The notes under the pieces are model-generated. The model did no database searches and was not told the origin of the DNA. It was given only the letters and a program-made list of their open reading frames with translations. The translations under genes were made by a program, and so were the position numbers. 64,000 nt of DNA from Eledone cirrhosa. Its lineage: Eukaryota > Mollusca > Cephalopoda > Octopoda > Eledonidae. Shown in pieces: positions 1 to 56,476 of the stretch. The first letter of the stretch is position 1. Each line of letters starts with the position of its first letter. The stretch covers positions 126,724,919 through 126,788,918 of the forward strand of contig OZ024743.1 of NCBI GenBank assembly GCA_964016885.1, written 5' to 3'.

Positions 1-434
1 TGCCACAGTCAAAAGGAGCAAGCAGCGTCCTTCTTCCTGGAGTTCAATGTAGAGTGTGAGCACGAGCAAAATACACAAGAAATTTGGTGTTTTGTCCCTG
101 TGAAGTGACCGTTTTCAGTATCCTTAAATGATACAACACATTGGGTAAGGCTTCTTTTGATTTCACTAAGTGGTTATTTCTACCATAAACACACACTTAC
201 ACATATATACAAAGTCGAACATATATATAGTTAGCACATATGTAATGAATGCACATGTATTAATTCTCGTGTACAATACACGAACAATACGTGAACATCT
301 CGATATATCATAGAGGGAGGACAAGGAGAAAAAATGACAGAAGTCTGCAAACAAAAAAATTAAAGCAACATCTTTGGGGCACACAAAGACTTTCTATTGT
401 TTAGAATCTTAAAATGAGGCATCCGCCTGCACAG

Positions 435-506
435 GCCTCGGTGGTGTAATGGCTAGCATGGTTGCATTACAAGCAGTTGATCCGTTTTCAACTCTCGGCC
501 GACGCA
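435..506 (+). pseudogene. Decayed tRNA-Gly-like copy, array A unit 1, anticodon TAC
   Basis: 72 nt matching the consensus at both ends. The loop is ATTACAA, so the anticodon would be TAC, and the T arm (ccgttttcaactctcgg) no longer pairs. The A box is changed too (tgtaatggct). Confidence 0.7.
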
Positions 507-1470
507 TAGGTTTAGTGTTTGATGGAAGAGCTTTGTCTTTTTAATCATAACATTGTATATATAATTAAAATAAGAGAGAGAAAAAACAGGGGTTAAAAAC
601 GTCAAATTCTACTACATCAGTTGCGAAATATATCTCAGATACATCTCGTGAACCAAATGACAAACGGCGTACTTTACATTCCGAGATCAAATCCCACCAG
701 TTATGTCGTTGATATTTATTTGTGATACCATATGCAAGATGGATAACGTGAAGTCGGGGATAATCGCGGAATTTCTCTGTTTACACAAAAGTCCAAGTGA
801 AAAAAATGGCAACATTTCTACTGGAAACCCAAAGTGGATTGAGGGGACGTAGTAATAGAATCTTGAAACAACTCTAGAATTGTGGGTTGTTAAGAAAAAC
901 AAAAAAAGAAATACAACCCACGTATTAATAATGACATTCCTGATCTCTGACATTTACATGGAGATGAGTAAAAGAAAACGTTAACAAGTCAGGAGGAAAG
1001 GTTGTTTACTATCAGAATTTATCTCAATGTGGCTACCTAGGGTTGAGAGTAGAGTGCTTCCTCGGACATTGGCAATACACAAAGAGAGAAATTCGTCTTT
1101 TATGTTTGCATGTAGCCCAGCTTTTCTCCCACTAACTAATGTAAGTGTTCAGAACTAGAGATCAACTTGTGTCACATAGTTCTCATGCCAGAGAGCAATG
1201 ACAACAGTTGTCTTTTCTGGCTATCAAAAACCTCCGCGTACTAGCCACATAAGAGGGCCTGATTTCTGTATCGAGTGATTTTGAGAAGATAACAAAGACC
1301 ATATAAAATTCTTTGTTATTCCCAATATTTAACATATTTATATATCATACAGATAATAAAACCTATAGAAAACCTGACTGAGTTGAGGGAAAACTTAAAG
1401 CAGTAGCTTTGGTAGACAGAACAATTTTGTATTATTCAATATCTTTAAATGATGGGATAACATCCTAGAG

Positions 1471-1542
1471 GCGTCGGTGGTGTAACGGTTAGCAGGGTTG
1501 CCTTCCAAGCAGTCGATCCGGGTTCGACTCCCGGCCGACGCA
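1471..1542 (+). tRNA. tRNA-Gly (TCC), array A unit 1
   Basis: A 72-nt cloverleaf. The acceptor pairs GCGTCGG with CCGACGC, followed by discriminator A. The anticodon loop CTTCCAA gives TCC and sits on a 5-bp stem that includes wobble pairs. The T arm is CCGGG-TTCGACT-CCCGG. The A box (tggtgtaacgg) and B box (ggttcgactcc) match the Pol III consensus. TTTTT follows directly at 1543-1547 as a terminator. The only change from the locus consensus is T25 to G, which weakens the D stem. It would read GGA codons and, by wobble, GGG. Confidence 0.85.
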
Positions 1543-2319
1543 TTTTTAATGTACTTTTTTTATATAGACATTCTTCAATAAGATTTTTCTTATTTTATTT
1601 TCACAACGATTTCTACTGCATGTGACATGTCTAACGTTTCAGACTACCTATATCTGCCTAAATATCAAGTATAAGTAAGAAAACTATATTGAGAACAGAA
1701 TAATTCGGCACCCTCAGTTGGACAGCATATCTCTGCTATATCTTGAAGACTTGAGGTAAAACTGTGTACTTTACATTCCGATATGAAATCACGCAACTGA
1801 TGATTTTCATATTAAAGAGACAAAAAAGATGATATAAAAACGGGTTTTATCGAGAGATTTCTCTACTTGCTCCCTGCTTGCTCTCTGCCACAGTCAAAAG
1901 GAGCAAGCAGCGTCCTTCTTCCTGGAGTTCAATGTAGAGTGTGAGCACGAGCAAAATACACAAGAAATTTGGTGTTTTGTCCCTGTGAAGTGACCGTTTT
2001 CAGTATCCTTAAATGATACAACACATTGGGTAAGGCTTCTTTTGATTTCACTAAGTGGTTATTTCTACCATAAACACACACTTACACATATGTACAAAGT
2101 CGAACATATATATAGTTAACACATATGTAATGAATGAACATGTATTAATTCCCGTGTACAATACACGAACAATACGTGAACATCTCGATATATCATAGTG
2201 GGAGGACAAGGAGAAAAAATGACAGAAGTTTGCAAACAAAAAAATTAAAGCAACAGCTTTGGCGCACACAAAGACTTTCTATTGTTTAGAATCTTAAAAT
2301 GAGGCATCCGCCTGCATAG

Positions 2320-2344
2320 GCGTCGGTTGTGTAATGGCTAGCAT
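2320..2344 (+). pseudogene. Truncated tRNA-Gly-like stub, array A unit 2
   Basis: Only the first ~25 nt remain. Sequence jumps from the first gctagcat to the flank that normally follows gacgcat, consistent with deletion between two 'gcat' repeats. Confidence 0.7.
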
Positions 2345-3308
2345 AGGCTTAGTTTTTGATGGAAATGCTTTGTCTTTTTAATCATAACATTTCTTTGATT
2401 TTTATATATAATTCAAATAAGGTCAGGGGTTAAAAACGTCAAATTCTTCTACATCAGTTGCGAAATATATCTCAGACACATCTCGTGAACCAAATGACAA
2501 ACGGCGTAATTTACATTCCGAGATCAAATCCCAACAGTTCCATCGTTGATATTTATTTGGGATACCATATGCAAGATGGATAACGTGAAGTCGGGGATAA
2601 TCGCGGAATTTCTCTGTTTACACAAAAGTCCAAGTGAAAAAAATGGCAACATTTCTACTGGAAACCCAAAGTGGATTGAGGGGACGTAGTAAGAGAATCT
2701 TGAAGCAACCCTAGAATTGTGGGTTGTTAAGAAAAACAAAAAAAAGAAATACAACCCACGTATTAATAATGAAATCCTTGATCTCTGACATTTACACGGA
2801 GATGAGTAAAAGAAAACGTTAAAAAGTCAGGAGGAAAGGTTGTTTACTATCAGGATTTATCTCAATGTGGCTACCTAGGGTTGAGAGTAGAATGCCTCCT
2901 CGGACATTGGCAACACACAAAGAGAGAAATTCGTCTTTTATGTTTGCATGTAGCCCAGCTTGTCTCCCACTAACTAATGTAAGTGTTCAGAACTAGAGAT
3001 CAACTTGTGTCACATAGCTCTCATGCCAGTGAGTAATGAGAACAGTTGTCTTTTCTGGCTATCAAAAACCTCCTCGTACCAGCCACATAACCGGGTCTGA
3101 TTTCTGTATCGAGTGATTTTGAGAAGATAACAAAGACCATATAAAATTCTTTGTTATTCCCAATATTTAAAATATTTATATATCATACAGATAATAAAAC
3201 GTATAGAAAACCTGACTGAGTTGAGGGAAAACTTAAAGCAGTAGCTTTGGTAGACAGAAAAATTTTGTATTATTCAATATCTTTAAATGATGGTATAACA
3301 TCCCAGAG

Positions 3309-3379
3309 GCGTCGGTGGTGTAACGGTTAGCATGGTTGCCTTCCAAGCAGTCGATCCGGTCCGACTCCCGGCCGACGCA
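3309..3379 (+). pseudogene. Pseudo-tRNA-Gly, array A unit 2
   Basis: 71 nt. The acceptor and TCC anticodon are intact, but one base is lost and one changed in the T arm (ccggtccgactcccgg). This destroys the T stem and B box. T5 still follows. Confidence 0.75.
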
Positions 3380-4159
3380 TTTTTAATGTACTTATTTTAT
3401 ATAGACATTCTTCAATAAGATTTTTCTTATTTTATTTTCACAACAATTTCTACTACATGTGACATGTCTAACGTTTTAGACTACCTATATCTGCCTAAAT
3501 ATCAAGTATAAGTAGTTAAGAAAACTATATTGAGAACAGAATAAATCGGCGCTCTCAGTTGGACAGCATATCTCTGCTATATCTTGAAGACTTGAGGTAA
3601 AACGGTGTACTTTATATTCCGATATGAAATAACGCCACTGATAATTTTCATATTAAAGCGACAAAAAGGATGATATAAAAACAGGTTTTATCGAGAGATT
3701 TCTCTACTTGCTCCATGCTTGCTCCCTGCCACAGTCAAAAGGAGCAAGCAGCGTCCTTCTTCCTGGAGTTCAATGTAGAGTGTGAGCACGAGCAAAATAC
3801 ACAAGAAATTTGGTGTTTTGCCCCTGTGAAGTGACCGTTTTCAGTATCCTTAAATAATACAACACATTGGGTAAGGGTTCTTTCGATTTCACTAAGTGTT
3901 TATTTATACCATAAACACACACTGACACATATATACAAAGTCGAACATATATATAGTTAACACATATGTAATGAATCAACATGTATTAATTCTCGTGTAC
4001 AATACATGAACAATACGTGAACATCTCGATATGTCATAGAGGGAGAACAAGGAGAAAAAATGACAGAATTCTGCAAAAAAAAAATTAAAGCAACATCTTT
4101 GGCGCACACAAAGACTTTCTATTGTTTAGAACCTTAAAATGAGGCATCCGCCTGCATAG

Positions 4160-4184
4160 GCCTCGGTGGTGTAATGGCTAGCAT
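4160..4184 (+). pseudogene. Truncated tRNA-Gly-like stub, array A unit 3
   Basis: Same deletion breakpoint as the stub at 2320, so the two units descend from one deleted ancestor. Confidence 0.7.
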
Positions 4185-5147
4185 AGGCTTAGTTTTTGAT
4201 GGAAATGCTTTGTCTTTTTAATCATAACATTTCTTTGATTTTTATATATAATTCAAATAAGGTCAGGGGTTAAAAACGTCAAATTCTACTACATCAGTTG
4301 CGAAATATATCTCAGACACATCTCGTGAACCAAATGACAAACGGGGTACTTTACATTCCGAGATCAAATCCCACCAGTTACGTCGTTGATATTTATTTGG
4401 GATACCATATGCAAAATGGATAACGTGAAGTCGGGGATAATCGCGGAATTTCTCTATTTACTCAAAAGTCCAAGTGAAAAAAATGGCAACATTTCTACTG
4501 GAAACCCAAAGTGGATTGAGTGGACGTAGTAAGAGAATCTTGAAACAACTCTAGAATTGTGGGTTGTTAAGAAAGACAAAAAAAGAAATACAACCCACGT
4601 ATTAATAATGACATGATTGATCTCTGACATTTACACGGAGATGAGTAAAAGAAAACGTTAACAAGTCAGGAGGAAAGGTTGTTTACTATCAGAATTTATC
4701 TCAATGTGGCTACCGAGGATTGAGAGTAGAGTGCTTCCTCGGACATTGGCAATACACAAAGAGAGAAATTCGTCTTTTATGTTTGCATGTAGCCCAGCTT
4801 TTCTCCCACTAACTAATGTAAGTGTTCAGAACTAGAGATCAACTTGTGTCACATAGCTCTCATGCCAGAGAGCAATGACAACAGTTGTCTTTTCTGGCTA
4901 TCAAAACCCTCCGCGTACTAGCCACATAAGAGGGCCTGATTTCTGTATCGAGTGATTTTTAGAAGATAACAAAGACCATATAAAATTCTTTGTTATTCCC
5001 AATATTTAACATATTTATATATCATACAGATAATAAAACCTATAGAAAACCTGACTGAGTTGAGGGAAAACTTAAAGCAGTAGCTATGGTAGAGAGAACA
5101 ATTTTGTATTATTCAATATCTTTAAATAATGGGATAACATCCTAGAG

Positions 5148-5219
5148 GCGTCGGTGGTGTAACGGTTACCATGGTTGCCTTCCAAGCAGTCGATCCGGGT
5201 TCGACTCCCGGCCGACGCA
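5148..5219 (+). tRNA. tRNA-Gly (TCC), array A unit 3
   Basis: Full-length copy with perfect acceptor and T arms, anticodon TCC and an immediate T5 terminator. It differs from the consensus only at G22 to C (ggttaccat). The type 2 genes of array B share this change, which leaves a 3-bp D stem. Confidence 0.86.
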
Positions 5220-6000
5220 TTTTTAATGTACTTTTTTTATATAGACATTCTTCAATAAGATTTTTCTTATTTTATTTTCACAACGATTTCTACTGCATGT
5301 GACATGTCTAACGTTTCAGACTACCTATATCTACCTAAATATCAAGTATAAGTAGTTAAGAAAACTATATTGAGAACAGAATAATTCGGCACCCTCAGTT
5401 GGACAGCATATCTCTGCTATATCTCGAAGACTTGAGGTAAAACTGTGTACTTTACATTCCGATATGAAATAACGCCACTGATGATTTTCATATTAAAGAC
5501 ACAGAAAGAACGATATAAAAACGGGTTTTATCGAGAGATTTCTCTACTTGCTCCCTGCTTGCTCTCTGCCACAGTCAAAAGGAGCAAGCAGCGTCCTTCT
5601 TCCTGGAGTTCAATGTAGAGTGTGAGCACGAGCAAAATACACAAGAAATTTGGTGTTTTGTCCCTGTGAAGTGACCGTTTTCAGTATCCTTAAATGATAC
5701 AACACATTGGGTAAGGCTTCTTTTGATTTCACTAAGTGGTTATTTCTACCATAAACACACACTTACACGTATATACAAAGTCGAACATATATATAGTTAA
5801 CACATATGTAATGAATTAACATGTATTAATTCTCGTGTACAATACACGAACAATACGTGAACATCTCGATATATCATAGTGGGAGGACAAGGAGAAAAAA
5901 TGACAGAAGTCTGCAAACAAAAAAATTAAAGCAACATCTTTGGGGCACACAAAGACTTTCTATTGTTTAGAATCTTAAAATGAGGCATCCGCCTGCACAG

Positions 6001-6072
6001 GCCTCGGTGGTGTAAAGGCTAGCATGGTTGCATTCCAACCAGTTGATCCGTTTTCAACTCTCGGCCGACGCA
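6001..6072 (+). pseudogene. Decayed tRNA-Gly-like copy, array A unit 4
   Basis: Anticodon TCC, but G39 to C breaks the stem. A box reads tgtaaaggc, and the T arm (ccgttttcaactctcgg) is unpaired. Confidence 0.7.
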
Positions 6073-7046
6073 TAGGCTTAGTTTTTGATGGAAATGCTTT
6101 GTCTTTTTAATCATAACATTTCTTTGATTTTTATATATAATTCAAATAAGAGAGGGAAAGGACAGGGGTTAAAAACGTCAATTTCTTCTACATCAGTTGC
6201 GAAATATATCTCAGACACATCTCGAGAACCAAATGACAAACGGCGTACTTTACACTCCGAGAACAAATCCCACCAGTTACGTCGTTGATATTTATTTGTG
6301 ATACCATATGCAAGATGGATAACGTGAAGTCGGGGATAATCGCGGAATTTCTCTGTTTACACAAAAGTCCTAGTGGAAAAAATGGCAACATTTCTACTGG
6401 AAACCCAAAGTGGATTGAGTGGACGTAGTAAGAGAATCTTGAAACAACTCTAGAATTGTGGGTTGTTAAGAAAGACAAAAAAAGAAATACAACCCACGTA
6501 TTAATAATGAAATCCTTGATCGCTGACATTTACGAGGAGATGAGTAAAAGAAAACGTTAACAAGTCAGGAGGAAAGGTTGTTTACTATCAGAATTTATCT
6601 CAATGTGTCTACCTAGGGTTGAGAGTAGAATGCTTCCTCGGACATTGGCAATACACAAAGAGAGAAATTCGTCTTTTATGTTTGCATGTAGCCCAGCTTT
6701 TCTCCCACTAACTAATGTAAGTGTTCAGAACTAGAGATCAACTTGTGTCACATAGCTCTCATGCCAGAGAGCAATGACAACAGTTGTCTTCTCTGGCTAT
6801 CAAAAACCTCCGAGTACTAGCCACATAAGAGGGCCTGATTTCTGTATCGAGTGATTTTGTGAAGATAACAAAGACCATATAAAATTCTTTGTTATTCCCA
6901 ATATTTAACATATTTATATATCATACAGATAATAAAACCTATAGAAAACTTGACTGAGTTGAGGGAAAACTTAAAGCAGTAGCTTTGGTAGACAGAAAAA
7001 CTTTATATTATTCAATATCTTTAAATGATGTGATAACGTCCCAGAG

Positions 7047-7118
7047 GCGTCGGTGGTGTAACGGTTAGCATGGTTGCCTTCCAAGCAGTCGATCCGGGTT
7101 TGACTCCCGGCCGACGCA
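7047..7118 (+). tRNA. tRNA-Gly (TCC), array A unit 4, T-loop variant
   Basis: All stems and the TCC anticodon are kept, and T5 follows. The T loop reads TTTGACT instead of TTCGACT. This changes the nearly invariant C of the T loop (standard C56) and a core B-box base, so both transcription and folding are likely weakened. Could be an early pseudogene. Confidence 0.55.
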
Positions 7119-7890
7119 TTTTTAATGTACTTATTTTATATAGACATTCTTCAATAAGATTTTTTTCTTTTCTTTTCACAGCGATTTCTACTACATGTGA
7201 CATGTCTAACGTTTTAGACTACCTATATCTGCCTAAATATCAAGTATAAGTAGTTAAGAAAACTATATTGAGAACAGAATAATTCGGCACCCTCAGTTGG
7301 ACAGCATATCTCTGCTACATGTCGAAGACTTGAGGTAAAACTGTGTACTTTACATTCCGATATGAAATAACGCCACTGATGATTTTCATATTAAAGACAC
7401 AAAAAGCGACGATATAAAAACGGGTTTTATTGAGAGATTTCTCTACTTGCTCCCTGCTTGCTCTCTGCCACAGTCAAAAGGAGCAAGCAGCACCCTTCTT
7501 CCTGGAGTTCAATGTAGAGTGTGAGCACGAGCAAAATACACAAGAAATTTGGTTTTTTGTGAAGTGACCGTTTTCAGTATCCTTAAATGATACAACACAT
7601 TGGGTATGGCTTCTTTTGATTTCACAAAGTGGTTATTTCTACCATAAACACACACTTACACATATATACAAAGTCGAACATATATATAGTTAACATATAT
7701 GTAATGAATTAACATGTATTAATTCTCGTGTACAATACATGAACAATACGTGAACATCTCGATATATCATTGAGGGAGAACAAGGAAAAAAATGACAGAA
7801 GTCTGCAAAAGAAAATTAAAGCAACATCTTTGGGGCACACAAAGGCTTTCTATTGTTTAGAATCTTAAAATGAGGCATCCGCCCGCATAG

Positions 7891-7962
7891 GCTTCGGTGG
7901 TGTAATGGCTAGCATGGTTGCATTCCAAGCAGTTTATCCGTTTTCAACTCTCAGCCGACTCA
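7891..7962 (+). pseudogene. Decayed tRNA-Gly-like copy, array A unit 5
   Basis: Anticodon TCC. Multiple losses in the variable region and T arm (agtttatccgttttcaactctcag), and the 3' acceptor reads ccgactca. Confidence 0.7.
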
Positions 7963-8861
7963 TAGGTTTAGTTTTTGATGGAAATGCTTTGTCTTTTTAA
8001 TCATAACATTTCTTTGATTTTTATATATAATTCAAATAAGAGAGGGAAAGGACAGGGGTTAAAAACGTCAAATTCTTCTACATCAGTTGCGAAATATATC
8101 TCAGACACATCTCGTGAACCAAATGATAAACGGCGTACTTTACATTCCTAGATCAAATCCCACCAGTTACGGCGTTGATATTTATTCGGGATACCATATG
8201 CAAGATGGATAACGTGAAGTCGGGGATAATCGCGGAATTACTCTGTTTACACAAAAGTCCAAGTGAAAAAAATGGCAATATTTCTACTGGAAACCCAAAG
8301 TGGATTGAGGGGACGTAGTAAGAGAATCTTGAAACAGCTCTAGAATTGTGGGTTGTTAAGAAAAACATAAAAGATATACAACCCGCGTATTAATAATGAC
8401 ATCCTTGATCTCTGACATTTACACGGAGATGAGTAAAAGAAAACGTTAACAAGTCAGGAGGCAAGGTTGTTTACTATCAGAATTTATCTCAATGTGGCTA
8501 CCTAGGGTTGAGAGTAGAATGCTTCCTCGGACATTGGCAATATACAAAGAGAGAAATTCTTCTTTTATGTTTGCATGTAGCCCAGCTTGTCTCCCACTAA
8601 CTAATGTAAGTGTTCAGAACTAGAGATCAACTTGTGTCACATAGCTCTCATGCCAGAGAGTAATGATAATAGTTGTCTTTTCTGGCTATCAAAAACCTCC
8701 GCGTACTAGCCACATAAGAGGACCTGATTTCTGTATCGAGTGATTTTAAGAAGATAACAAAGACCACATAAAATTCTTTGTTATTCCCAATATTTAACAT
8801 ATTTATATATCATACAGAGAAAAAAACGTATTGAAAACCTGACTGAGTTGAGGGAAAACTT

Positions 8862-8920
8862 AAAGCAGTAGCTTTGGTAGTCAGAAAAATGTTGTATTGC
8901 TCAATATATTTAAATGATGG
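8862..8920 (+). promoter_or_regulatory. Conserved 5' flank of array A tRNA-Gly
   Basis: Two blocks before the gene at 8936: near-palindrome aaagcagtagcttt at -74 to -61, and attgctcaatatatttaaat at -40 and onward. The same spacing occurs before array B type 1 genes although the rest of the units differ. Candidate external Pol III promoter elements; function is inferred. Confidence 0.5.
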
Positions 8921-8935
8921 GCTAACATCCCAGAG

Positions 8936-9007
8936 GCGTCGGTGGTGTAACGGTTAGCATGGTTGCCTTCCAAGCAGTCGATCCGGGTTCGACTCCCGGC
9001 CGACGCA
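8936..9007 (+). tRNA. tRNA-Gly (TCC), array A unit 5
   Basis: Exact match to the locus consensus, identical over all 72 nt to the copies at 10829, 25739, 32266, 38812 and 45363. Followed at once by TTTTT. The upstream element aaagcagtagcttt lies 74-61 bp before the gene. Confidence 0.93.
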
Positions 9008-9783
9008 TTTTTAATGTACTTATTTTATATAGACATTCTTCAATAGGATTTTTCTTATTTTATTTTCACAACGATTTCTACTACATGTGACATGTCTAAC
9101 GTTTTAGACTAATCTGCCTAAATATCAAGTATAAGTAGTTAAGAAAACTATATTGAGAACAGAATAATTCGGCACCCTCAGTTGGACAGCATATCTCTAC
9201 TACATCTCGAAGACTTGAGGTAAAACTGTGTACTTTACATTCCGATATGAAATAACGCCACTGATGATTTTCATATTAAAGACACAAAAAGGATGATATA
9301 AAAACGGGTTTTATCGAGAGATTTCTCTACTTGCTCCTTGCTTGCTCTCTGCCACAGTCAAAAAGGAGCAAGCAGCGTCCTTTTTCCTAGAGTTCAATGT
9401 AGAGTGTGAGCACGAGCAAAATACACAAGAAATTTGGTGTTTTGTCCCAGTGAAGTGACCGTTTTCAGTATCCTTAAATGATACAACACATTGGGTATGG
9501 CTTCTTTTGATTTCACAAAGTGGTTATTTCTACCATAAACACACACTTACACATATATACAAAGTCGAACATATATATAGTTAAGACATATGTAATGAAT
9601 TAACATGTATTAATTCTCGTGTACAATACACGAACAATACGTGAACACCTCGATATATCATAGAGGGAGAAAAAGGAAAAAAAATGACAGAATTCTGCAA
9701 AAAAAAATTAAAGCAACATCTTTGTTGGCACACAAAGGCTTTCTATTGTTTAGAATCTTAAAATGAGGCATCCGCCTGCACAG

Positions 9784-9855
9784 GCCTCGGTGGTGTAATG
9801 GCTAGCATGGTTGCATTCCAAGCAGTTGATCCGTTCTCAACTCTCGGCCGACGCA
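9784..9855 (+). pseudogene. Decayed tRNA-Gly-like copy, array A unit 6
   Basis: Anticodon TCC with a good anticodon stem. T arm ccgttctcaactctcgg no longer pairs, and the acceptor has a mismatch at nt 3 (GCC). Confidence 0.7.
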
Positions 9856-10828
9856 TAGGTTTAGTGTTTGATGGAAGAGCTTTGTCATTTTAATCATAAC
9901 ATTCCTTTGATTTTTATATATAATTCAAATAAGAGAGGGAAAGGACAGGGGTTAGAAACGTCAAATTCTACTACATCAGTTGCGAAATATATCTCAGACA
10001 CATCTCGTGAACCAAATGATAAACGGCGTACTTTACATTCCTAGATCAAATCCCACCAGTTACGTCGTTGATATTTATTTGGCATACCATATGCAAGATG
10101 GATAACGTGAAGTCGGGGATAATCGCGGAATTACTCTGTTTACACAAAAGTCCAAGTGAAAAAAATGGCAATATTTCTACTGGAAACCCAAAGTGGATTG
10201 AGGGGACGTAGTAAGAGAATCTTGAAACAGCTCTAGAATTGTGGGTTGTTAAGAAAAACATAAAAGATATACAACCCGCGTATTAATAATGACATCCTTG
10301 ATCTCTGACATTTACACGGAGATGAGTAAAAGAAAACGTTAACAAGTCAGGAGGAAAGGTTGTTTACTATCAGAATTTATCTCAATGTGGCTACCTAGGG
10401 TTGAGAGTAGAATGCTTCCTCGGACATTGGCAATATACAAAGAGAGAAATTCTTCTTTTATGTTTGCATGTAGCCCAGCTTGTCTCCCACTAACTAATGT
10501 AAGTGTTCAGAACTAGAGATCAACTTGTGTCACATAGCTCTCATGCCAGAGAGTAATGATAATAGTTGTCTTTTCTGGCTATCAAAAACCTCCGCGTACT
10601 AGCCACATAAGAGGACCTGATTTCTGTATCGAGTGATTTTAAGAAGATAACAAAGACCACATAAAATTCTTTGTTATTCCCAATATTTAACATATTTATA
10701 TATCATACAGAGAAAAAAACGTATTGAAAACCTGACTGAGTTGAGGGAAAACTTAAAGCAGTAGCTTTGGTAGTCAGAAAAATGTTGTATTGCTCAATAT
10801 ATTTAAATGATGGGCTAACATCCCAGAG

Positions 10829-10900
10829 GCGTCGGTGGTGTAACGGTTAGCATGGTTGCCTTCCAAGCAGTCGATCCGGGTTCGACTCCCGGCCGACGCA
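10829..10900 (+). tRNA. tRNA-Gly (TCC), array A unit 6
   Basis: Identical to the consensus gene. Its unit is nearly identical to the preceding one for well over 1 kb on both sides, so the two are products of a recent tandem duplication. T5 terminator follows directly. Confidence 0.93.
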
Positions 10901-11676
10901 TTTTTAATGTACTTATTTTATATAGACATTCTTCAATAGGATTTTTCTTATTTTATTTTCACAACGATTTCTACTACATGTGACATGTCTAACGTTTTAG
11001 ACTAATCTGCCTAAATATCAAGTATAAGTAGTTAAGAAAACTATATTGAGAACAGAATAATTCGGCACCCTCAGTTGGACAGCATATCTCTACTACATCT
11101 CGAAGACTTGAGGTAAAACTGTGTACTTTACATTCCGATATGAAATAACGCCACTGATGATTTTCATATTAAAGACACAAAAAGGATGATATAAAAACGG
11201 GTTTTATCGAGAGATTTCTCTACTTGCTCCTTGCTTGCTCTCTGCCACAGTCAAAAAGGAGCAAGCAGCGTCCTTTTTCCTAGAGTTCAATGTAGAGTGT
11301 GAGCACGAGCAAAATACACAAGAAATTTGGTGTTTTGTCCCAGTGAAGTGACCGTTTTCAGTATCCTTAAATGATACAACACATTGGGTATGGCTTCTTT
11401 TGATTTCACAAAGTGGTTATTTCTACCATAAACACACACTTACACATATATACAAAGTCGAACATATATATAGTTAAGACATATGTAATGAATTAACATG
11501 TATTAATTCTCGTGTACAATACACGAACAATACGTGAACACCTCGATATATCATAGAGGGAGAAAAAGGAAAAAAAATGACAGAATTCTGCAAAAAAAAA
11601 TTAAAGCAACATCTTTGTTGGCACACAAAGGCTTTCTATTGTTTAGAATCTTAAAATGAGGCATCCGCCTGCACAG

Positions 11677-11748
11677 GCCTCGGTGGTGTAATGGCTAGCA
11701 TGGTTGCATTCCAAGCAGTTGATCCGTTCTCAACTCTCGGCCGACGCA
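11677..11748 (+). pseudogene. Decayed tRNA-Gly-like copy, array A unit 7
   Basis: Same sequence as the copy at 9784, in line with the recent duplication of these units. Confidence 0.7.
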
Positions 11749-12692
11749 TAGGTTTAGTGTTTGATGGAAGAGCTTTGTCATTTTAATCATAACATTCCTT
11801 TGATTTTTATATATAATTCAAATAAGAGAGGGAAAGGACAGGGGTTAGAAACGTCAAATTCTACTACATCAGTTGCGAAATATATCTCAGACACATCTCG
11901 TGAACCAAATGATAAACGGCGTACTTTACATTCCTAGATCAAATCCCACCAGTTACGTCGTTGATATTTATTTGGGATACCATATGCAAGATGGATAACG
12001 TGAAGTCGGGGATAATCGCGGAATTTCTCTGTTTACTCAAAAGTCCAAGTGAAAAAAATGGCAACATTTCTACTGGAAACCCAAAGTGGATTGAGTGGAC
12101 GTAGTAAGAGAATCTTGAAACAACTCTAGAATTGTGGGTTGTTAAGAAAAACAAAAAAAGAAATACAACCCACGTATTAATAATGAAATCCTTGATCTCT
12201 GACATTTACACGGAGATGAGTAAAAGGAAACGTTAACAAGTCAGGAGGAAAGGTTGTTTACTATCAGAATTTATCTCAACGTGGCTACCTATGGTTGAGA
12301 GTAGAATGCTTCCTCGGACATTGGCAATACACAAAGAGAGAAATTCGTCTTTTATGTTTGCATGTAGCCCAGCTTGTCTCCCACTAACTAATGTAAGTGT
12401 TCAGAACTAGAGATCAACTTGTGTCACCTAGCTCTCATGCCAGAGAGTAATGACAACAGTTGTCTTTTCTGGCTATGAAAACCCTCCCCGTATCAGCCAT
12501 ATAACAGGGCCTGATTTCTGTATCGAGTGATTTTGTGAAGATAACAAAGACCATATAAAATTCTTTGTTATTCCCAATATTCAACATATTTATATATCAT
12601 ACAGAGAATAAAACGTATAGAAAACTTGACTGAGTTGAGGGAAAACTTAAAGCAGTAGCTTTGGTAGACAGAAAAATTTTGTATTATTCAAT

Positions 12693-12869
12693 GATTGGCA
12701 GTATCGGTAGAGGGTCGGACGCCATGCTTTCCAGCATAGTTACGTCCCTTTACGATCTGAGTTCAACTCCCGCCGAGGTTGACTTTGCCTTTCATCCTTA
12801 CGGGGTCGATAAAATAAAGTACCAGTAATGCACTGGGTAATTGCTGGCCTTGTGCCTAAAGTAGAAACA
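12693..12869 (+). mobile_element. tRNA-derived SINE (cephalopod type), in array A unit 7
   Basis: tRNA-like head (ggcagtatcggtagagggtc, B-box-like gagttcaactcc), then the cephalopod central block (ctttgcctttcatccttac, ggggtcgataaaataaagta) and a tail ending gtagaaacaatt. Flanked by attattcaat at 12683-12692 and 12870-12879, a target-site duplication. No other array A unit has it, so it inserted after the array had formed. Confidence 0.88.
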
Positions 12870-12909
12870 ATTATTCAATATATTTAAATGATGGGATAAC
12901 ATCCCAGAG

Positions 12910-12981
12910 GCGTCGGTGGTGTAACTGTTAGCATGGTTGTCTTCCAAGCAGTCGATCCGGGTTCGACTCCCGTCCGACTCA
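12910..12981 (+). pseudogene. Pseudo-tRNA-Gly, array A unit 7
   Basis: Anticodon TCC kept, but the 3' end reads ccgtccgactca, breaking a T-stem pair and an acceptor pair, and the A box is changed (gtaactgtt). A SINE sits 40 bp upstream and displaces the native 5' flank, so loss of promoter context may have preceded decay. Confidence 0.75.
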
Positions 12982-41906: not shown

Positions 41907-41934
41907 ACCATGCTAACCGTTACACCACCGACGC
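41907..41934 (-). pseudogene. tRNA-Gly stub type 7, minus strand
   Basis: Same 28 nt and breakpoint. Confidence 0.75.
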
Positions 41935-43236: not shown

Positions 43237-43689
43237 CTCATACAGACTCTATCCTCAGTTACAAATACGAAACCATAGAAAATATTTGTGTCTACCAAAG
43301 CTGCTGCTTTCAGTTTTCTCTGAACTCAGTCATGTTTTCTATACCTTCTCTTCTTTTTTATGATATATAAATATGTTAAATATTGGAAAGAACAAAGTAT
43401 TTTATGTGATCTTTGTTGACTTCACGAAATCATTCATTCCAGAAATCAGATCATGCTATGTGGCTGGTACTCAGGTGACACAGAGTGAACTCCAGTTCTG
43501 AACACTTACATGCGGTAATGGAAGACAAACTGGGCTGCATACAAAATTACAACAAAAATTCTCTCTTTGTGTGTTGGCAATGTTCGAGGAGGCATTCTGT
43601 GCTCAACAGAAGGTAGCCGTATTGAAATAAGACCTGATATCAAACAACCTTTTCTCGTTAACTTGTTCTTCTACAGATCCACAATTCTA

Positions 43690-43744
43690 GAACCCGGATC
43701 GACTGCTTGGAAGGCAACCATGCTAACCTTTATACCACAGAGAC
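43690..43744 (-). pseudogene. tRNA-Gly stub type 8, minus strand
   Basis: Same truncation; 5' end decayed to GTCTCTG. Confidence 0.7.
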
Positions 43745-44701
43745 CCCATACAAACTCTAAACTGGGCTGCATACAAAATGCTTACGAGCATTAATATATG
43801 TTTATTCAGTACATATTTGTTAATGTCTATGTATATGTTCGAGTTTGTGTATGTGTGTAAGTGTGTGTTTATAGTAGAAATAACCACTCCTGAAAAGCAA
43901 GCGTACTCCTTGTACATATTAGGCGTGTGTAGAGAATGCTTTCGTGAAATCCAAAAAGTCCATATGCAATGTGCTGAATCATTTATGGATACTGAAACTC
44001 TTCATCACTCGGAGACAAAACACTGAATTTGTGGTGTCATTTGCACGTCTTCTCATTCTCCATTCAAATCCAGGAAGAAGTACTGTGCCTTTCTTTCTCT
44101 GCCTCTGTTGAGAAAACAGAGAGCAAGTAGAGAAATCTCTTGATTAAAAACCCGTATTTATATTATCCTTCTTGTGTTATGGGTTCTCAAATAAATATGA
44201 AAAGCATCACTGGTGGGATATCGGAACGTAAAATACACAAGTGAAGTCCACAACATGTCCACAAGATTTCTCCACGTACTCTCTGTTTGCTCAACAGAGT
44301 CAGGAGGGGAAATTAATGGTATTTCTACACGGAATTCAATGCTGAGTGAAAGGGCAAAAGGCACCAAGAATTTGATGTTTTGGTCTGAGAGATGCAGAGG
44401 TTCAGTATCCTTAAATAAAACAACACATTGCATAAGGATCCTTTTAATTTCACTAAGTGATTATTTCCACTATAAACACACACGTACCGACAAACACAAA
44501 CTCGAACACATACATAGACATTAACACATGTAATGAATAACCATATATTAATGCTCGTGTACAATAGTGTAACTTATCTATTTATCATAGAGGGAAAAGA
44601 AAGAGAAAAAATGACTGAATTCGGCAAAAAAACAGACGTTGTAGGTTTGGTTGACAAAGACTTTCTATTAGAATATTTAAATGATCCTGTTCGTTAAAAG
44701 G

Positions 44702-45362: not shown

Positions 45363-45434
45363 GCGTCGGTGGTGTAACGGTTAGCATGGTTGCCTTCCAA
45401 GCAGTCGATCCGGGTTCGACTCCCGGCCGACGCA
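45363..45434 (+). tRNA. tRNA-Gly (TCC), type 1, array B
   Basis: Consensus sequence, the sixth perfectly identical copy in the window. Confidence 0.93.
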
Positions 45435-48251: not shown

Positions 48252-48323
48252 GCGTCGGTGGTGTAACGGTTACCATGGTTGCTTTCCAAGCAATCGATCC
48301 GGGTTCGACTCCCGGCCGACGCA
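48252..48323 (+). tRNA. tRNA-Gly (TCC), type 2, array B
   Basis: Identical type 2 gene; trailer variant shared with 35154. Confidence 0.9.
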
Positions 48324-51242: not shown

Positions 51243-51314
51243 ATGTCGGTAGTGTAACGGTTAGCATGGTTTCTTTCATAGCAATTGTTCGTGGTTCGAC
51301 ACCTGGCCGACTTA
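51243..51314 (+). pseudogene. tRNA-like type 9 with anticodon TCA, intact B box
   Basis: B box ggttcgacacc is perfect, as at 38151, but the T stem 3' strand reads CCTGG. Confidence 0.6.
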
Positions 51315-51903
51315 TGTCATCTTTATTAAGGTACTGTTAAAATACTTTTTTATTTTCATTTCTCTTTCTTGATTAAATTTGTCTTTTTAATGATACCATT
51401 TGTTTTTCTTTATAATTCAAATGAAATAGGGAAAGGGCAGATGTAAAAAAAGTATCAAATTCTACATCAGCTGCGAATATATCTAAGACACATCTCATGA
51501 ACATAATGACAAATGGCGTAATTTACATTCCGAGATCAAATCCCACCAGTTGTGTCGCTGAAATTTTTTTGAGACACCATATGCAAGATGGATGACGTGA
51601 AGACGAGGATTATCGAGGAATTTCCCCATTTATCTCATTGTGGCTACCTCCAGTTATGCAGAGTACTCCCTCTAGCATTGCAAACTCACAAAGGGAGAAT
51701 TTCGTTTTTCTGAGTATCAAAACCCTATGAGTACCAGCCATATGATACGACCTGGTATCTGTATCGAATGATTTGTTGAAGTCAACAAAGACTACATACA
51801 ATGCTTTGTTATTTCTAAAGAGAAAACTTAAAGCAGCAGCTTTGCTAGATACAAACATTTTGTATAGTTCAATATCTTTAAATGATGGTAAAGTTTGTAT
51901 GAG

Positions 51904-51975
51904 GCGTCGGTGGTGTAACGGTTAGCATGGTTACCTTCCAAGCAGTCGATCCGGGTTCGACTCCCGGTCGACGCA
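51904..51975 (+). tRNA. tRNA-Gly (TCC), type 1, array B, stem-damaged
   Basis: Last type 1 copy, near the array edge. G30 to A breaks a pair in the anticodon stem (A30-C40), and C65 to T gives a wobble in the acceptor, as at 19192. The two outermost type 1 copies share the C65T change, while the four inner ones are perfect. Confidence 0.65.
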
Positions 51976-52294
51976 TCTTCAATTTTGTTTGTTTAGACAC
52001 TGTTCATGCAGATTTTTTTTATTATATTTTCATAACGATTTCGGCTGCATGTTACATGTCCATCGTTTGAGACTATCTATATCTGCCTAAAAGGCAAGTA
52101 TAAATGGTTGAGAAAAAGTTATTAAGAAAAGAATAATTCTATACCCTCATTTAGACAGCATATCTCTATTGCACCTGGCGGATTGGTGTAAACGGAGTAC
52201 TTTACCCTTCTGAAATCAAATCCAGAAGCATCTTTGGTAGACACAAAAAACTTCCTTTGGTTAGAATCTTTAAATGGTTTTACTCGTTGAAAAG

Positions 52295-52366
52295 ACGTCG
52301 GTGGTGTAACAGTTAGCATGACTTGCTTCCAAGCAATCGATCCGAGTTCGACTACCGGCCGAATCA
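52295..52366 (+). pseudogene. tRNA-Gly-like type 4, array B
   Basis: Same sequence as the copies at 32657 and 45755; last array B tRNA relic before the break at 52,686. Confidence 0.7.
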
Positions 52367-52686
52367 TCTTCGACAGGAGTTTAACTTGTGTGCCATTAAC
52401 TCTCATGCCAGACAGCGATGATAAATGTTTCTGGGTATCAAAACCCTCTGAGTACCAAGGATATGTCACAACCCACCAGTGATGTTGATATTTATTTGAG
52501 ACACCATGTGCAAGATGGATGACATGAAGTCTGGCATTAGCGATGAAATACTCTATTTGCTCAAAGTGTCAGTAAGAAAATCACAGCAGTTCTACCAGAA
52601 ACTCAAAATGGATAGAGGGACGTGGTACGGGCACCATGAAACAACGCTAGAACTGTTTGTTCGGAAAAACAAGAAATAGAAAGAAA

Positions 52687-52887
52687 TATGCAAGATGGAT
52701 AACGTGAAGACGAGGATAATCGAGGAATTTCTCTGGTTACTCAAAAGTCCAAGTGAAGAAAATGACAACATTTCTACTGGAAACCGAAAGTGGATTGAGG
52801 GGACGTAGTAAGAGAATCTTGAAACAACTCTAGAATTTAGGGTTGTTAAGAAAAAGAAAAAAGAAAAAGAAACCACGTGTTAATAGG
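52687..52887 (+). repeat. Rearranged B-unit fragment between array and LINE
   Basis: At 52,686 the sequence leaves the stretch just before the SINE site and joins the segment normally lying after the type 3 tRNA (tgcaagatggataacgtgaa, homologous to 21459 onward). It continues to a purine-rich stretch (aaagaaaaaagaaaaagaaa) and ends at ccacgtgttaata, where the LINE begins. Confidence 0.75.
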
Positions 52888-53105
52888 CGTTTCCCTGGAG
52901 GACGGCAAGGGAGGCGCGCTGGAAAAGCCACTCCAACTGGCGGGTCTCACACCTGCGGCTGGCCAGCTCAGCGCCTATGGTGATGAGTAGGGAGGTAGCA
53001 CTAGGGTCAAGGACACAAGAAGTCTCCACTGCCAGGGGTACAACCGCAAACCTGTCGGAGAGCGACCGGTATTTGAGGAGTTTGGCTCCTCAGCCCGAAC
53101 CTGGG

Positions 53106-53438
53106 TTAGTCGCAGAGTGCACCAGGTTGCGGCTGCAGAAACTGTCGGTGCAAGTGGCATCCCAGAGGAAGGGTTTGCCACCACGGAACGGGAAGATGGT
53201 CATCTGACCATTTGCCGCCCTCTCGGTCCATCTCCACCGGCTCGAGCTGGGAAGGAAAGCCTGCAGCGTCCAAGCCATGCTTTATGACCTCGTTGAGGGC
53301 AGCATGGCGTGCAAGGCGGCCGGCACTGTGGCGACAGGAAAGCGGGTGGAGGCCGAAAGAGTCTACGGTGCATCCGCAGCCACATTGGTGTGGCTCGCAG
53401 ACCCGGAGGCCGAGCGTCAAGGAAACGCCGATGCACAT
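53106..53438 (-). pseudogene. Cys/His and nuclease-like C-terminal part of the LINE (partial)
   Basis: Open 110-residue stretch, extended upstream in frame to about 53,590. H17, C19, C21, C23, H31, C35 and H45 form a Cys/His cluster (HQCGCGC, GLHPLSC, ARHAALN). It is followed by GGKWSDD and then a frameshift near 53.2 kb, after which another frame gives MTIFPFRGG and LWDATCTDSF. The order Cys/His cluster, PD-like site, WDATC recalls PD-(D/E)XK, restriction-like nuclease domains at the C terminus of RLE-type LINEs. Family assignment is inferred. Confidence 0.65.
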
Positions 53439-54023
53439 GCTATTGTTGTCTAGCTGCGTGCCAGTGGAGAGGGCGAGCAGGCCGTGGAGCCAGGCACCAC
53501 TGTGGGGTTTGGAGGCCGCACGAAAACAGGCAAGGCGGAGCTGGTCGAGCTGGTGCGTGAGCCTGTCTGAGGCCAGGCTGCACTGGATGGCATCCCAAGT
53601 GCTTTGGGGGGACTTGACATCAACAAGAGGTGAGGGGGAGGGACGTCTACTGGGCTAATCGCAGCCGGTCCCACGTCTCACAGGCGGCCTCACGTTCTCT
53701 GAACACAGAAGGTTCTATTGTGTTTTGAAGAACCCTGCTGACGAGGACGCGGTATGAGCTTGCCGACGAAATATACGCCGACAAAGCCAGTGAGATCGGG
53801 GACCGGAGGCCAAGACCGCCATACCTGACAGGTAAAGTGGCCTATTGCCATCCAATGTCGTCAAACTTGACGTTGCATATCGCCTCGGCGGCTGCTCGGA
53901 TACAAGTATCGAGGTCAGCGAGGAAAGATGTGTGGATGTAGCACGGAGAGCTGCGAAGGGTTTAGAGGAGCTTCGGCATGGCGAAGCAGTTCCTCAACAG
54001 AAAGAGAGTTGGGTGGCCGTCGA

Positions 54024-54557
54024 TCAAGCCCAGTCGGCTCGTGAGAGTCTGGACCTGATGGTGGAGCGGATGGCCGGCGGGTGGATCGGTGACCCGAGGA
54101 TGAGGACATCCTCTTTGGGGGTCACCTGTACCTGGTGGAGAATGGACCGCACGCCCGAGACGGAGGCTGCAAAGTTCTCAGCATCGTGGCTGAGATTCAC
54201 CACCTCCGACTTGGCCGAGTTGACTTGGAGGCCGATTCCTGCCAGGGCTGGAACCACCGATTGTAGGTCATGGCAGACAGTCTGTACGGGCCCGCCCAAC
54301 GTAGCATCATCCAGATACCAAACGTTGAGAGAGGCCGTAATACTCCGGGCGATGTGGTCAATACCAAGGGCAAACAGGAGGGGTCCCAAAGGGTCACCCT
54401 GTTGGACCCCAGTGGCCGCAGATATGACCGTATCAGCAGCAAGGAGCATGCTCGGGGCTCCATACGACAGGTAGGCCAGCGGGTAGACAGAGGGGGCTCG
54501 GCTGAGGCAGGCATCGAGCAGATGGTCCCGGCGTAAGCAGTTGAAGGCATTCCTCAT
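54024..54557 (-). pseudogene. Reverse transcriptase palm domain of the LINE (partial)
   Basis: 177-residue open stretch. NAFNCLRRDHLL at 3-14 fits the RT motif A region (in the preceding codons the frame reads LIVKLD before MRNAFN, so the start is not a real initiator). GVQQGDPLGP at 50-59 is the conserved non-LTR loop, and YLDD at 81-84 (54317-54306) is the catalytic YXDD. AKSEVV at 115-120 matches the following motif with a conserved Lys. The N-terminal fingers are separated by a stop, so the protein is broken. Confidence 0.88.
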
Positions 54558-54759
54558 GTCAAGCTTGACAATGAGGTGCTTGGAGTCTCTGGATGCCGGT
54601 TCCGATGAGAGGCTGTTGAAGAGCTGCCTGGTTGCATGTGCGGACCCCTAATAGGCACCGGACACGCCGACATCCAATTGCACAGGACTGAACTCCTCAC
54701 CCACTTCGGGTGTTATGGACCTGCAGACCACCTTGGTTGATGGTAGAGTTTGTATACAG

Positions 54760-54831
54760 GCGTCGGTGGTATAACGGTTAGCATGGTTGCCTTCTCAGCA
54801 GTCGATCGGGGTTCGACTCTCGGCCAACGCA
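54760..54831 (+). pseudogene. tRNA-Gly-like copy with anticodon TCT, array tail
   Basis: 72 nt. Loop CTTCTCA would give anticodon TCT with a pyrimidine at nt 37. A box tggtataacgg is acceptable. T arm tcggggttcgactctcgg is partly mispaired, and acceptor GCGTCGG against CCAACGC has one mismatch. Confidence 0.65.
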
Positions 54832-55653
54832 TATTCAATTTAGATTTTTTTGTGTAGGCACTATTCGTACAGATTTTACTTATTTTATTTTCAAAACTAT
54901 TTTTACTGCATGTTACATGTCTAACGTTTTAGACTATCTTTAATTTACTTTTATATGTAGACATTCTTCTTGAAGATTGTTCTTATTTTATTTTCATAAC
55001 CATTTCTACTGCATGTTACATGTCTAACGTTTTAATCGCATCGTTGACTTAATTTTATCGAGGTGTCGTTTAAAAAGAGACACCGTATGTACGATGGATG
55101 ACACGAAGACGAGGATTATCGAAGAATTTCTCTGTTTGCTGAAAAGACTGAGTATTAATAATGAGGACCTTGAACTCTGTTATTTATGACGAGATCTGTA
55201 GTAGAACGGGTTAACAGGTCAAGAGGAAAGGTAGCTTAAAACCAGGTCTTATCTCAATATGGCTACCTTCAGTTGAGAACAGAATGCCGCCTCGAGCATT
55301 ACTAACACATAAAGAGAGAATTTGTTTTGTAACTTTGCATGCAGCCCAGCTTGATAAGTATTATAAGTATGACATGAAGACGAGGATTATCGAGGAATTT
55401 CTCTATCACCTGTGTGACATATCCTCATCTGCCAACTATCAACGATAAGAGTAAACTTTTCTGGGTATCAAAACCCTCTGAGTACCAGCCACATAGCACG
55501 GCCTGATTTCTGTATCGAATGATTTCGTGAAGTCAACAAAGACCACATACAATGTTTTGATCTTTCCAAGCAAAAACTTAAAGCAGCAGCTTTGGAAGAC
55601 ACAAATATTCTGTATAGTTTAGTATCTTTAAGTGATGGCAGAGTTTGTATGAG

Positions 55654-55727
55654 GCGGCGGTGGTGTGTAACGACCAGCATGGTTTCCTTCCGAGCAGACG
55701 ACCCGGGTTCGACTTCCTACCGACGCA
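55654..55727 (+). pseudogene. Decayed tRNA-Gly-like copy, array tail
   Basis: 74 nt. Two bases are inserted in the A box (ggtgtgtaacg), D loop changed, anticodon arm tttccttccgagc disrupted, and T-stem 3' strand ttcct. B-box core ttcgact and 3' end cgacgca survive, followed by T5. Confidence 0.7.
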
Positions 55728-56377
55728 TTTTTAATTTAATTTTTTTTTATGTAGACACTATTCATACAGATTTTACTTATTTTATTTTCATAACTATTTT
55801 TACTGCATGTGACACGTCTAATGTTTTAGACTACCTATATCTGCCTAAATATCAAGTATAAGTAGTTAAGAAAACTATATTGATAACAGAATAATTCGGC
55901 ACTCTCAGTTGGGCAGCATATCTCTGCTACATCTCGAAGACTTGAGGTAAAACGGTGTACTTTACATTCCAATATAAAATCACGCCACTGATGCTTTTCA
56001 TATTTATTGGAGAACCCATACACAAGAAGGATGATATAAAAACGGATTTATCGAGAGATTTCTCGGCTTGCTCCCTGTTTAGTCAACAGAGTCAGAGGGG
56101 AAAAAATCATGGTACTTCTACCCGTAATTCAATGTAGAGTGAAAGGACACCACGAATGTGACGTTTTTTCTCTGGGAGATGCAGGGTTTCAGTATCCTTA
56201 AATAATACAACACATTGCATAAGGATTCTTTTTATTTCACTAAGTGGTTATTTCTACTATAAACACACACACACTTACACATATATACAAACTGCTTTGA
56301 AGTATAAGGAAACCCAAATGGTAAAAAGACAAATTTAATTAAGAATGAGAAGAAAAATTAAATAAAGTAATTAAATG

Positions 56378-56390
56378 CCCCCCCCCCCCA
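56378..56390 (+). repeat. Poly-C run
   Basis: A run of about 12 C in AT-rich sequence between the decayed array and the internally deleted pseudo-tRNA. Confidence 0.8.
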
Positions 56391-56418
56391 TCCCCACTCC
56401 ATAAAACAGATTTAAACT

Positions 56419-56476
56419 TGCCTCGGCGGGGCGTTGAAACCGGAGGCAACCATGCTAACAGTTGCACCACCGACAC
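56419..56476 (-). pseudogene. Internally deleted tRNA-Gly-like copy, minus strand
   Basis: 58 nt. The 5' half (gtgtcggtggtgcaactgtt) runs through ggttgcct and then directly into ccggtttcaacgccc. The anticodon's 3' side is missing. Confidence 0.6.

Follow-up and report, generated by a model that had tools for sequence, protein, structure and literature searches.

Tandem arrays of transfer RNA (tRNA) genes have been described in Entamoeba (PMC2652664), human and mouse (PMC4041453), Hydractinia (PMC11067881), Arabidopsis (PMC10701932) and Xenopus (PMC11500080), and tRNA genes are described as evolving either in concert or by birth and death with rapid pseudogene formation (PMC4981973). Such arrays were called unusual outside Entamoeba by the Hydractinia authors (PMC11067881). 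Here, a locus of tRNA-Gly(TCC) genes and gene relics from the cephalopod Eledone cirrhosa was studied in a window of 64,000 nucleotides (assembly GCA_964016885.1, contig OZ024743.1, forward strand, positions 126,724,919 to 126,788,918; all coordinates below are counted from the first base of this window). By its organization the locus is a tandem tRNA array, and it differs from the arrays described before in its single isoacceptor, its two nested periods, its inverted block and its majority of relics. No report of a nested tRNA array, or of a cephalopod tRNA array, was present among the matches listed in the literature searched.

The human and mouse repeat at 1q23.3 is built from a 7.3-kb unit with several tRNA genes (Darrow and Chadwick 2014, PMC4041453), and in this respect resembles the larger unit found here, which is ~6.54 kb long. 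The human unit, however, is GC-rich and binds CTCF, with one period described in the available text of that report (PMC4041453), whereas the Eledone array holds one isoacceptor, is AT-rich and displays two nested periods, many relics and an inverted block. Tandem tRNA arrays with repeated spacers are also a feature of Entamoeba, where 25 array units with up to 5 tRNA genes, and with short tandem repeats between them, account for more than 10% of the genome (Tawari et al. 2008, PMC2652664); in the present case there is only one tRNA family and the spacers go back to earlier copies of the same block. The account of the Hydractinia arrays, as far as its available text goes, mentions neither nesting nor a relic layer (PMC11067881). 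In Arabidopsis a Ser-Tyr-Tyr unit is repeated 27 times across almost 40 kb, and there is also a tRNA-Cys cluster with a variable number of units and a pseudogene at its edge. Both resemble the present locus as tandem arrays limited to one or two tRNA families, and the Cys cluster does so in its decayed edge copy as well; one level of repetition is described for these clusters in the text available, compared with the nested order of the present locus (PMC10701932). The tandemly arrayed tRNA genes of Xenopus have been tied to supply in the early embryo (PMC11500080), whereas for the array studied here no evidence points to a role in egg or embryo. Finally, most adjacent clustered tRNA pairs were parallel in orientation in a survey of eukaryotes (PMC2888827), which makes an inverted block less usual. 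A preliminary description of the sequence had considered a nested organization with both strand orientations in one unit unusual. This judgement was upheld in part: tandem tRNA arrays are already known from the five systems above, and the nesting and the inverted block are taken to be the new part.

The window begins with eight units of ~1.88 kb, which were 94.7–98.3% identical over aligned bases in all 28 pairs. The left edge of the window falls within this first array, and the eight units are therefore those inside the window and not the whole array. A second array, with a period of ~6.54 kb, occupies positions 15,585–52,686 and comprises five full units of 6527–6551 bp, with mutual identities of 98.2–99.0% in all 10 pairs, together with partial units at both ends. 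The edge copy of this array was only 94.0–94.6% identical to the inner units. In both arrays the units are regular and arranged head to tail, with homologous spacers, which is the organization of a tandem array, and the windows covering them are AT-rich (36–39% GC). The flanks of the single tRNA-bearing monomers were 72–86% identical between lineages in 17 of 18 pairs, compared with 94.7–99.0% between units, which is the hallmark of a higher-order repeat; the eighteenth pair, B6-P17 (95%), consists of two copies of one lineage. The two adjacent periods given in the preliminary description were thus recovered. The extent given there, positions 1 to 56,476, held in so far as homologous material continues to ~ 56.6 kb, but the 6.54-kb array proper ends at 52,686 and is followed by a decayed tail that contains a long interspersed nuclear element (LINE). 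The remaining 7.3 kb of right flank (56,700–64,000) is rich in microsatellites.

The relationship between the two unit types was explored by aligning one 6.54-kb unit (b4) with the 1.88-kb unit. Of the 6551 bases of b4, 6354 were found to align, part of them inverted, in pieces of up to 2.4 kb with 59–88% identity, while a single base-shuffled unit used as a control gave no matches and none of the 7301 bases of the right flank showed homology to the 1.88-kb unit. The alignment over nearly the full unit indicates that both units come from one older block, as had been proposed in the preliminary description. The two portions of the 1.88-kb unit are themselves still alignable (62% over 568 columns). 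In addition, when the query was doubled, a collinear piece of b4 at 38,727–41,137 (61%) extended beyond a single 1.88-kb period, and two sites within b4 that are separated by 1.96 kb match each other at 75% (207 columns); these data suggest that an array with the dimer period may have existed before the 6.54-kb unit, an order that is drawn from weak alignments. Between lineages, flanks were found to be shared on both sides of the tRNA, over hundreds of bases in the best-matching pairs. For this comparison the tRNA body was masked as N, which biases identities, and the results used were the extent of the shared flanks and the ungapped conservation figures. Sharing on both sides shows the elements to be segmental duplicates that were not retroposed. 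Retroposition in the manner of a short interspersed nuclear element (SINE) was accordingly ruled out as the origin of the relics, and the monomers, with common flanks on either side over up to hundreds of bases, do not have the structure of a tRNA-derived SINE.

The tRNA content of the window was surveyed by three methods. ARAGORN called 32 tRNAs (30 Gly-TCC, one 'Val' and one 'Arg'), and the Rfam tRNA model gave 29 matches above its cut-off, 16 of them at 51.9–62.5 bits and the other 13 at 29.0–45.4 bits; laxer filters increased the number of matches to 33 and left the top 16 unchanged. A search with nhmmer, using one intact copy as the query, returned 74 rows at E values of up to 10. After removal of two antisense rows that fell within intact genes, and of a weak one located in a SINE, 71 elements were left, with the weak relics at 2320 (E 0.58) and 4161 (E 0.27) retained because they are in register. 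When a boundary of 51.9 bits, set by the analyst, was applied, the 71 elements divided into 16 intact-like copies and 55 relics, 16 of the relics being partial matches of less than 60 nt, in agreement with the approximate numbers counted by the preliminary description. Of the intact-like copies, five belong to the 1.88-kb array, which has eight full-length genes, and the others to the 6.54-kb array, where lineage B1 contributes six and lineage B4 five. All 16 are full-length matches to the covariance model; the anticodon TCC was seen in these 16 Rfam copies and in the 30 ARAGORN calls. Each 1.88-kb unit contains a relic and a full element with spacings of ~ 1.04 and 0.85 kb, while each of the five full 6.54-kb units carries four tRNA elements on the minus strand, confirming that both orientations occur within one unit, as had been claimed before.

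The history of the gene bodies was explored by comparing divergence in the 72-base body with divergence in 242–251 flanking bases, using one copy per lineage and a Fisher test. The flanks are homologous and so provide a rough neutral clock for the divergence of the body. The comparison included 18 pairs, all of which were counted: three intact–intact, six relic–relic and nine intact–relic. In the three pairs formed by B1, B4 and the full-length gene of the 1.88-kb unit (A_full, represented by a copy chosen for its consensus body), the bodies differed at 0, 3 and 3 of 72 positions, while the flanks differed by 20%, 27% and 23% (P = 7e-7, 5e-6 and 9e-5, in the same pair order). In contrast, body and flank diverged alike in all six relic–relic pairs (P = 0.43–0.95), which belong to two classes (B6-F2, B6-P17 and F2-P17 in one; A_relic-B3, A_relic-B8 and B3-B8 in the other), with B6 and P17 not being independent since the latter represents the B6 lineage in the edge copy. 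The nine intact–relic pairs were intermediate (P = 0.002–0.65). The conservation of the bodies is probably best explained by purifying selection on a few lineages.

The sequences in and around the intact-like copies have the features of tRNA-Gly(UCC) genes: an A box and a B box within the gene, and a T-run as terminator. The A box is unchanged in all 16 copies and the B box in 15, and a run of at least four T residues starts no more than 8 bases downstream in every case. All 16 also possess an upstream TATA-like element, TATCTTTAAATGATGG, at −31 with at most one mismatch; TATA-like elements occur upstream of tRNA genes elsewhere. When one B-box change was allowed, only two of the 55 other elements (3309 and 14808) passed the same limits. 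The upstream element was 93% conserved among A_full, B1, B3 and B4, compared with 45% among seven relic classes. Note, however, that B3 is counted among the four best-kept classes though its best-listed copy (27680) reached 37.0 bits, and that the B3 body, compared with A_relic, diverges like a relic. On the upstream side, conservation fell to 83% in the adjoining stretch and to 70% beyond that, a gradient with no sharp upstream edge, and it was 49% over the 15 bases that follow the element.

The favoured interpretation of these data, to which a probability of about 0.7 is given, is that the locus is a dosage array of tRNA-Gly(UCC) genes transcribed by RNA polymerase III (Pol III), which evolves by birth and death and is reshaped by unequal exchange, the function in this case being read from sequence. 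At least three rounds of growth are envisaged for which the homology is observed and the mechanism and order are proposed. In the first, blocks of ~ 1 kb with one tRNA would have duplicated and most of the gene copies would have decayed, leaving homologous flanks around degraded bodies. In the second, a relic-plus-gene dimer of ~ 1.9 kb would have become the unit, and in the third, unequal exchange may have amplified both the ~ 1.88-kb dimer and a ~ 6.54-kb unit made of dimer-like pieces, some of them inverted. The intact copies are probably transcribed by Pol III by means of the A and B boxes, the TATA-like element at −31 and the T-run terminator, and would supply tRNA-Gly(UCC), with the relics being by-products of birth and death. 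Since each unit type retains at least one intact gene lineage, dosage would be buffered while homogenization and decay continue together, and the array may have persisted for this reason. The preliminary description had left the role open between gene dosage, a barrier or insulator, and selfish expansion. Dosage fits best because of the past constraint on the gene bodies; no constraint was detected since the last amplifications, and the other two roles are kept as rivals.

The variation between units was also examined for signs of exchange. The highest numbers of private variants were found in units adjoining an array edge (43 in b1 and 38 in a8), compared with 17–28 per 6.54-kb unit and 1–28 per 1.88-kb unit elsewhere, and neighbouring units share long exact runs (888 bases between a5 and a6, 732 bases between a6 and a7). 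Together with the edge copy at ~ 94% identity, this pattern is broadly as unequal exchange predicts.

Several observations weigh against a dosage array maintained in this way. When variable cells were compared across units, constraint within the present arrays was not detectable: the full tRNA of the eight 1.88-kb units had 11 variable cells out of 575 (1.91%), compared with 2.53% overall, and B1 and B4 in the five 6.54-kb units had one out of 720, compared with 0.74% overall. Windows of the same length varied as little in 26% (full 1.88-kb tRNA), 31% (B1) and 17% (B4) of cases. Over the 40 bases leading up to the full 1.88-kb gene, with the TATA-like element included, variation reached 5.0%, above 97% of windows, the 30 bases downstream of B1 were also more variable than usual (4.0%), and three of the eight 1.88-kb units carry damaged genes below 46 bits. 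The consensus for the motif and boxes was taken from intact copies, so that the comparison with relics is partly circular, whereas the comparison of the upstream element with its adjacent bases is not. With regard to exchange, the right-end unit b5 (26 private variants) does not exceed the inner unit b3 (28), and the variants shared by b1 and b4 (20 sites) and by b3 and b5 (17 sites) ignore neighbour order, which points to probable further exchange or conversion. It could also be that gene conversion limited to the gene body, and not selection, gave rise to the identity of the bodies.

Because the current copies show no detectable constraint, the main rival to a dosage array is a macrosatellite, in which a neutral or selfish tandem expansion is driven solely by recombination and the tRNA genes are passengers that decay without consequence. 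This would account for the 55 relics among 71 elements and the lack of detectable constraint since the last amplifications, and unequal exchange without selection is expected to produce higher-order units whose edge copy is decayed. However, the bodies of three lineages remain 96–100% identical despite flank divergence of 20–27%, and the promoter-like element and terminator have been kept where those of a pure passenger would decay like the relics; this explanation is therefore regarded as unlikely, though it deserves to be taken seriously. A further possibility concerns the relics that still carry boxes, since TFIIIC can dock at box-only sites. The locus could be a self-renewing reserve, in which founder lineages were functional for a long time and units were re-amplified before they decayed, with box-bearing relics (the five of lineage B6) acting as TFIIIC docking sites that organize or insulate the locus. 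This scheme is viewed with considerable doubt.

The idea that the array as a whole is a chromatin boundary or insulator, with intact genes and box-bearing relics binding TFIIIC and marking a domain edge, is an analogy to what has been proposed for the 1q23.3 repeat, and part of the mouse tRNA repeat is reported to have barrier activity (Darrow and Chadwick, PMC4041453). In the five full units the B6 relics retain the A box in five of five cases and the B box in four of five, and in comparisons with the intact lineages the body of B6 has diverged slightly less than the flank (P = 0.04, 0.18 and 0.05), as has that of the edge copy P17 (P = 0.004, 0.02 and 0.002). However, the intact half of each intact–relic pair is constrained, which alone would yield such values, B6 showed no body excess against the relic F2 (P = 0.78), and neither side of the array has an identified gene or domain, all of which makes a boundary function improbable. 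Least credible of all is an assembly artefact, with collapsed, duplicated or mis-joined repeats mimicking two periods. Long near-identical repeats are hard to assemble and the exact copy number may be wrong as assembled, but the sequence contains no ambiguous bases, every unit has private variants (17–43 per 6.54-kb unit, 1–38 per 1.88-kb unit) and one unit alone of the 1.88-kb array carries a 183-bp SINE. Moreover, no two 6.54-kb units share an exact run of more than 793 bases, where wholesale artificial duplication would leave longer ones.

Decay of the relics driven by methylation was also considered. The two arrays had observed/expected CpG ratios of 0.80 and 0.77, and the right flank one of 0.79. 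When nine relics were examined, changes were found at 29 of 156 CpG positions, about double the rate at other positions (46 of 476). Only 12 of these 29 changes were of the deamination type, so that the difference is at most a weak sign, and the explanation was rejected.

A number of observations on individual tRNA elements were made alongside. The 'Val' and 'Arg' calls are, to judge from their bases, relics with shifted anticodons and thus decaying copies: the anticodon is TAC in 13763–13834 ('Val') and in 435–506 (the same bases, no ARAGORN call), and TCT in 54760–54831 ('Arg'). The B4 copies share a D-arm change with the 5148 copy and have additional changes in the anticodon arm, and these body differences would provide a natural marker for expression. 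When five copies were folded as RNA, B4 formed a clean cloverleaf (z −3.4), the best fold of the consensus gene 10829 was not a cloverleaf (z −1.6), and no signal was obtained for B3, B5 or the 9784 relic; folding did not settle the question of function. In unit b4, where alone they were measured, inverted repeats of ~ 400 bases (80%; 38727–39134 and 42917–43321) were found that could favour inversion or hairpin formation. In the tail, the flank directly downstream of the 54760 tRNA contains a tandem duplication of ~ 105 bp (54831–54954 and 54936–55058, 79%).

A SINE-like repeat of ~ 190 bp, in which ARAGORN found no tRNA, is located at 12693–12875, 60990–61172 (minus strand), 62207–62391 and 19987–20172 (minus strand), the last of these with a counterpart at the equivalent position of each remaining full 6.54-kb unit (four in all). 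In the 1.88-kb array the 183-bp copy at 12,693–12,875 is found only in unit a7, while a relative sits at one place in every full 6.54-kb unit. The copy in a7 shares 98.4% identity with the one at 61 kb, and is less similar to the copies of the 6.54-kb units (86.6–89.2%). Its end lies 35 bases before the 12910 tRNA, and a repeat of ~ 10 bases, ATTATTCAAT, was seen by eye on both sides. The repeat is taken by us to resemble the cephalopod kind, Ceph-SINE. Ceph-SINEs have been reported from squids and octopuses (PMC7708342).

The decayed tail is interrupted by the LINE piece (~ 52,886–54,737, minus strand), which encodes a reverse transcriptase (Pfam RVT_1, 3e-10). Within the best 120 of 210 matches, the top three named relatives were from the cuttlefish Acanthosepion pharaonis (52% and 54%) and Octopus sinensis (48%), and the matches named by organism comprised two from cuttlefish, two from Octopus sinensis, three from Ramazzottius (a tardigrade) and one labelled 'bacterium'. 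Taken with the SINE, these relatives point to a cephalopod as the likely source, which agrees with the preliminary description. A downstream part of the LINE may correspond to the zinc finger and endonuclease of R2-type elements. At the 54760 tRNA the LINE stands in place of the upstream element, and array sequence resumes 22 bases upstream of this tRNA. Targeting of tRNA genes by the LINE is not claimed, as the array sequence on its far side did not, by eye, match this piece, and as the family is also represented outside the array by a short stretch (57369–57476, 72%).

Thirteen in-frame stretches resembling reverse transcriptase motif A (for example YVVFVDFTKSFDT) were also noted (Table 1), several of them directly upstream of a tRNA element that lies on the other strand, and these are perhaps the remnant of a LINE in the ancestral monomer; a Pfam scan of one open reading frame (ORF) with this motif (38431–38829) gave no match. 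Of 20 long ORFs, eight were scanned against Pfam, and no match was obtained for the four array ORFs, which stand for three repeated ORF families; one ORF of the LINE matched RVT_1. Protein genes in the array units were therefore rejected.

Table 1. Positions of arrays, tRNA elements and associated features in the 64,000-nucleotide window.
Feature	Position	Strand	Remarks
1.88-kb array, eight units	1-15225	+	One relic and one full-length tRNA-Gly element per unit; unit starts 1, 1886, 3727, 5567, 7460, 9351, 11244, 13329; lengths 1840–2085 bp
Ninth 1.88-kb unit, truncated	15226-15696	+	87% to unit a6; meets second array at ~15,585–15,696
6.54-kb array, partial edge copy	15585-18588		3.0 kb
Five full 6.54-kb units, b1–b5	18588-51298		Starts 18588, 25134, 31661, 38207, 44758
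Partial sixth 6.54-kb unit	51299-52686		
Inverted block of unit b4	41902-44239	-	Holds the four minus-strand tRNA elements
Decayed array tail	52687-56636		tRNA elements 54760, 55654, 56476 (-); split by LINE
Intact-like tRNA-Gly(TCC)	1471-1542	+	56.8 bits
Intact-like tRNA-Gly(TCC)	5148-5219	+	58.5 bits
Intact-like tRNA-Gly(TCC)	7047-7118	+	59.8 bits; one B-box change
Intact tRNA-Gly(TCC)	8936-9007	+	62.5 bits; consensus body
Intact tRNA-Gly(TCC)	10829-10900	+	62.5 bits; consensus body
Intact-like tRNA-Gly(TCC), lineage B1	19192-19263	+	59.0 bits
Intact tRNA-Gly(TCC), lineage B4	22075-22146	+	61.2 bits
Intact tRNA-Gly(TCC), lineage B1	25739-25810	+	62.5 bits
Intact tRNA-Gly(TCC), lineage B4	28604-28675	+	61.2 bits
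Intact tRNA-Gly(TCC), lineage B1	32266-32337	+	62.5 bits
Intact tRNA-Gly(TCC), lineage B4	35154-35225	+	61.2 bits
Intact tRNA-Gly(TCC), lineage B1	38812-38883	+	62.5 bits
Intact tRNA-Gly(TCC), lineage B4	41701-41772	+	61.2 bits
Intact tRNA-Gly(TCC), lineage B1	45363-45434	+	62.5 bits
Intact tRNA-Gly(TCC), lineage B4	48252-48323	+	61.2 bits
Intact-like tRNA-Gly(TCC), lineage B1	51904-51975	+	51.9 bits
Damaged genes of 1.88-kb array	3309-3379, 12910-12981, 14808-14879	+	45.4, 43.4, 44.9 bits
Relic element of 1.88-kb unit	9784-9855	+	Others at 435, 2320, 4160, 6001, 7891, 11677, 13763
Lineage B6 relic	43165-43236	-	A and B boxes unchanged; body and upstream element decayed; other copies 23610, 30137, 36689, 49784, the last with one B-box change
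TATA-like element (consensus in text)	10798-10813	+	−31 to −16 of the 10829 gene
Stretches like reverse transcriptase motif A	19077, 25624, 32151, 38697, 45248, 51789, 55540, 20430, 26958, 33508, 40055, 46606	-	
Stretch like reverse transcriptase motif A	17338	+	

The array is a readable fossil record of the renewal of a tRNA family, in which three layers of duplication are preserved and kept and dead copies stand side by side. With the homologous flanks serving as a rough neutral clock, it becomes possible to examine in related species whether selection for dosage maintains tRNA arrays or recombination alone does so.

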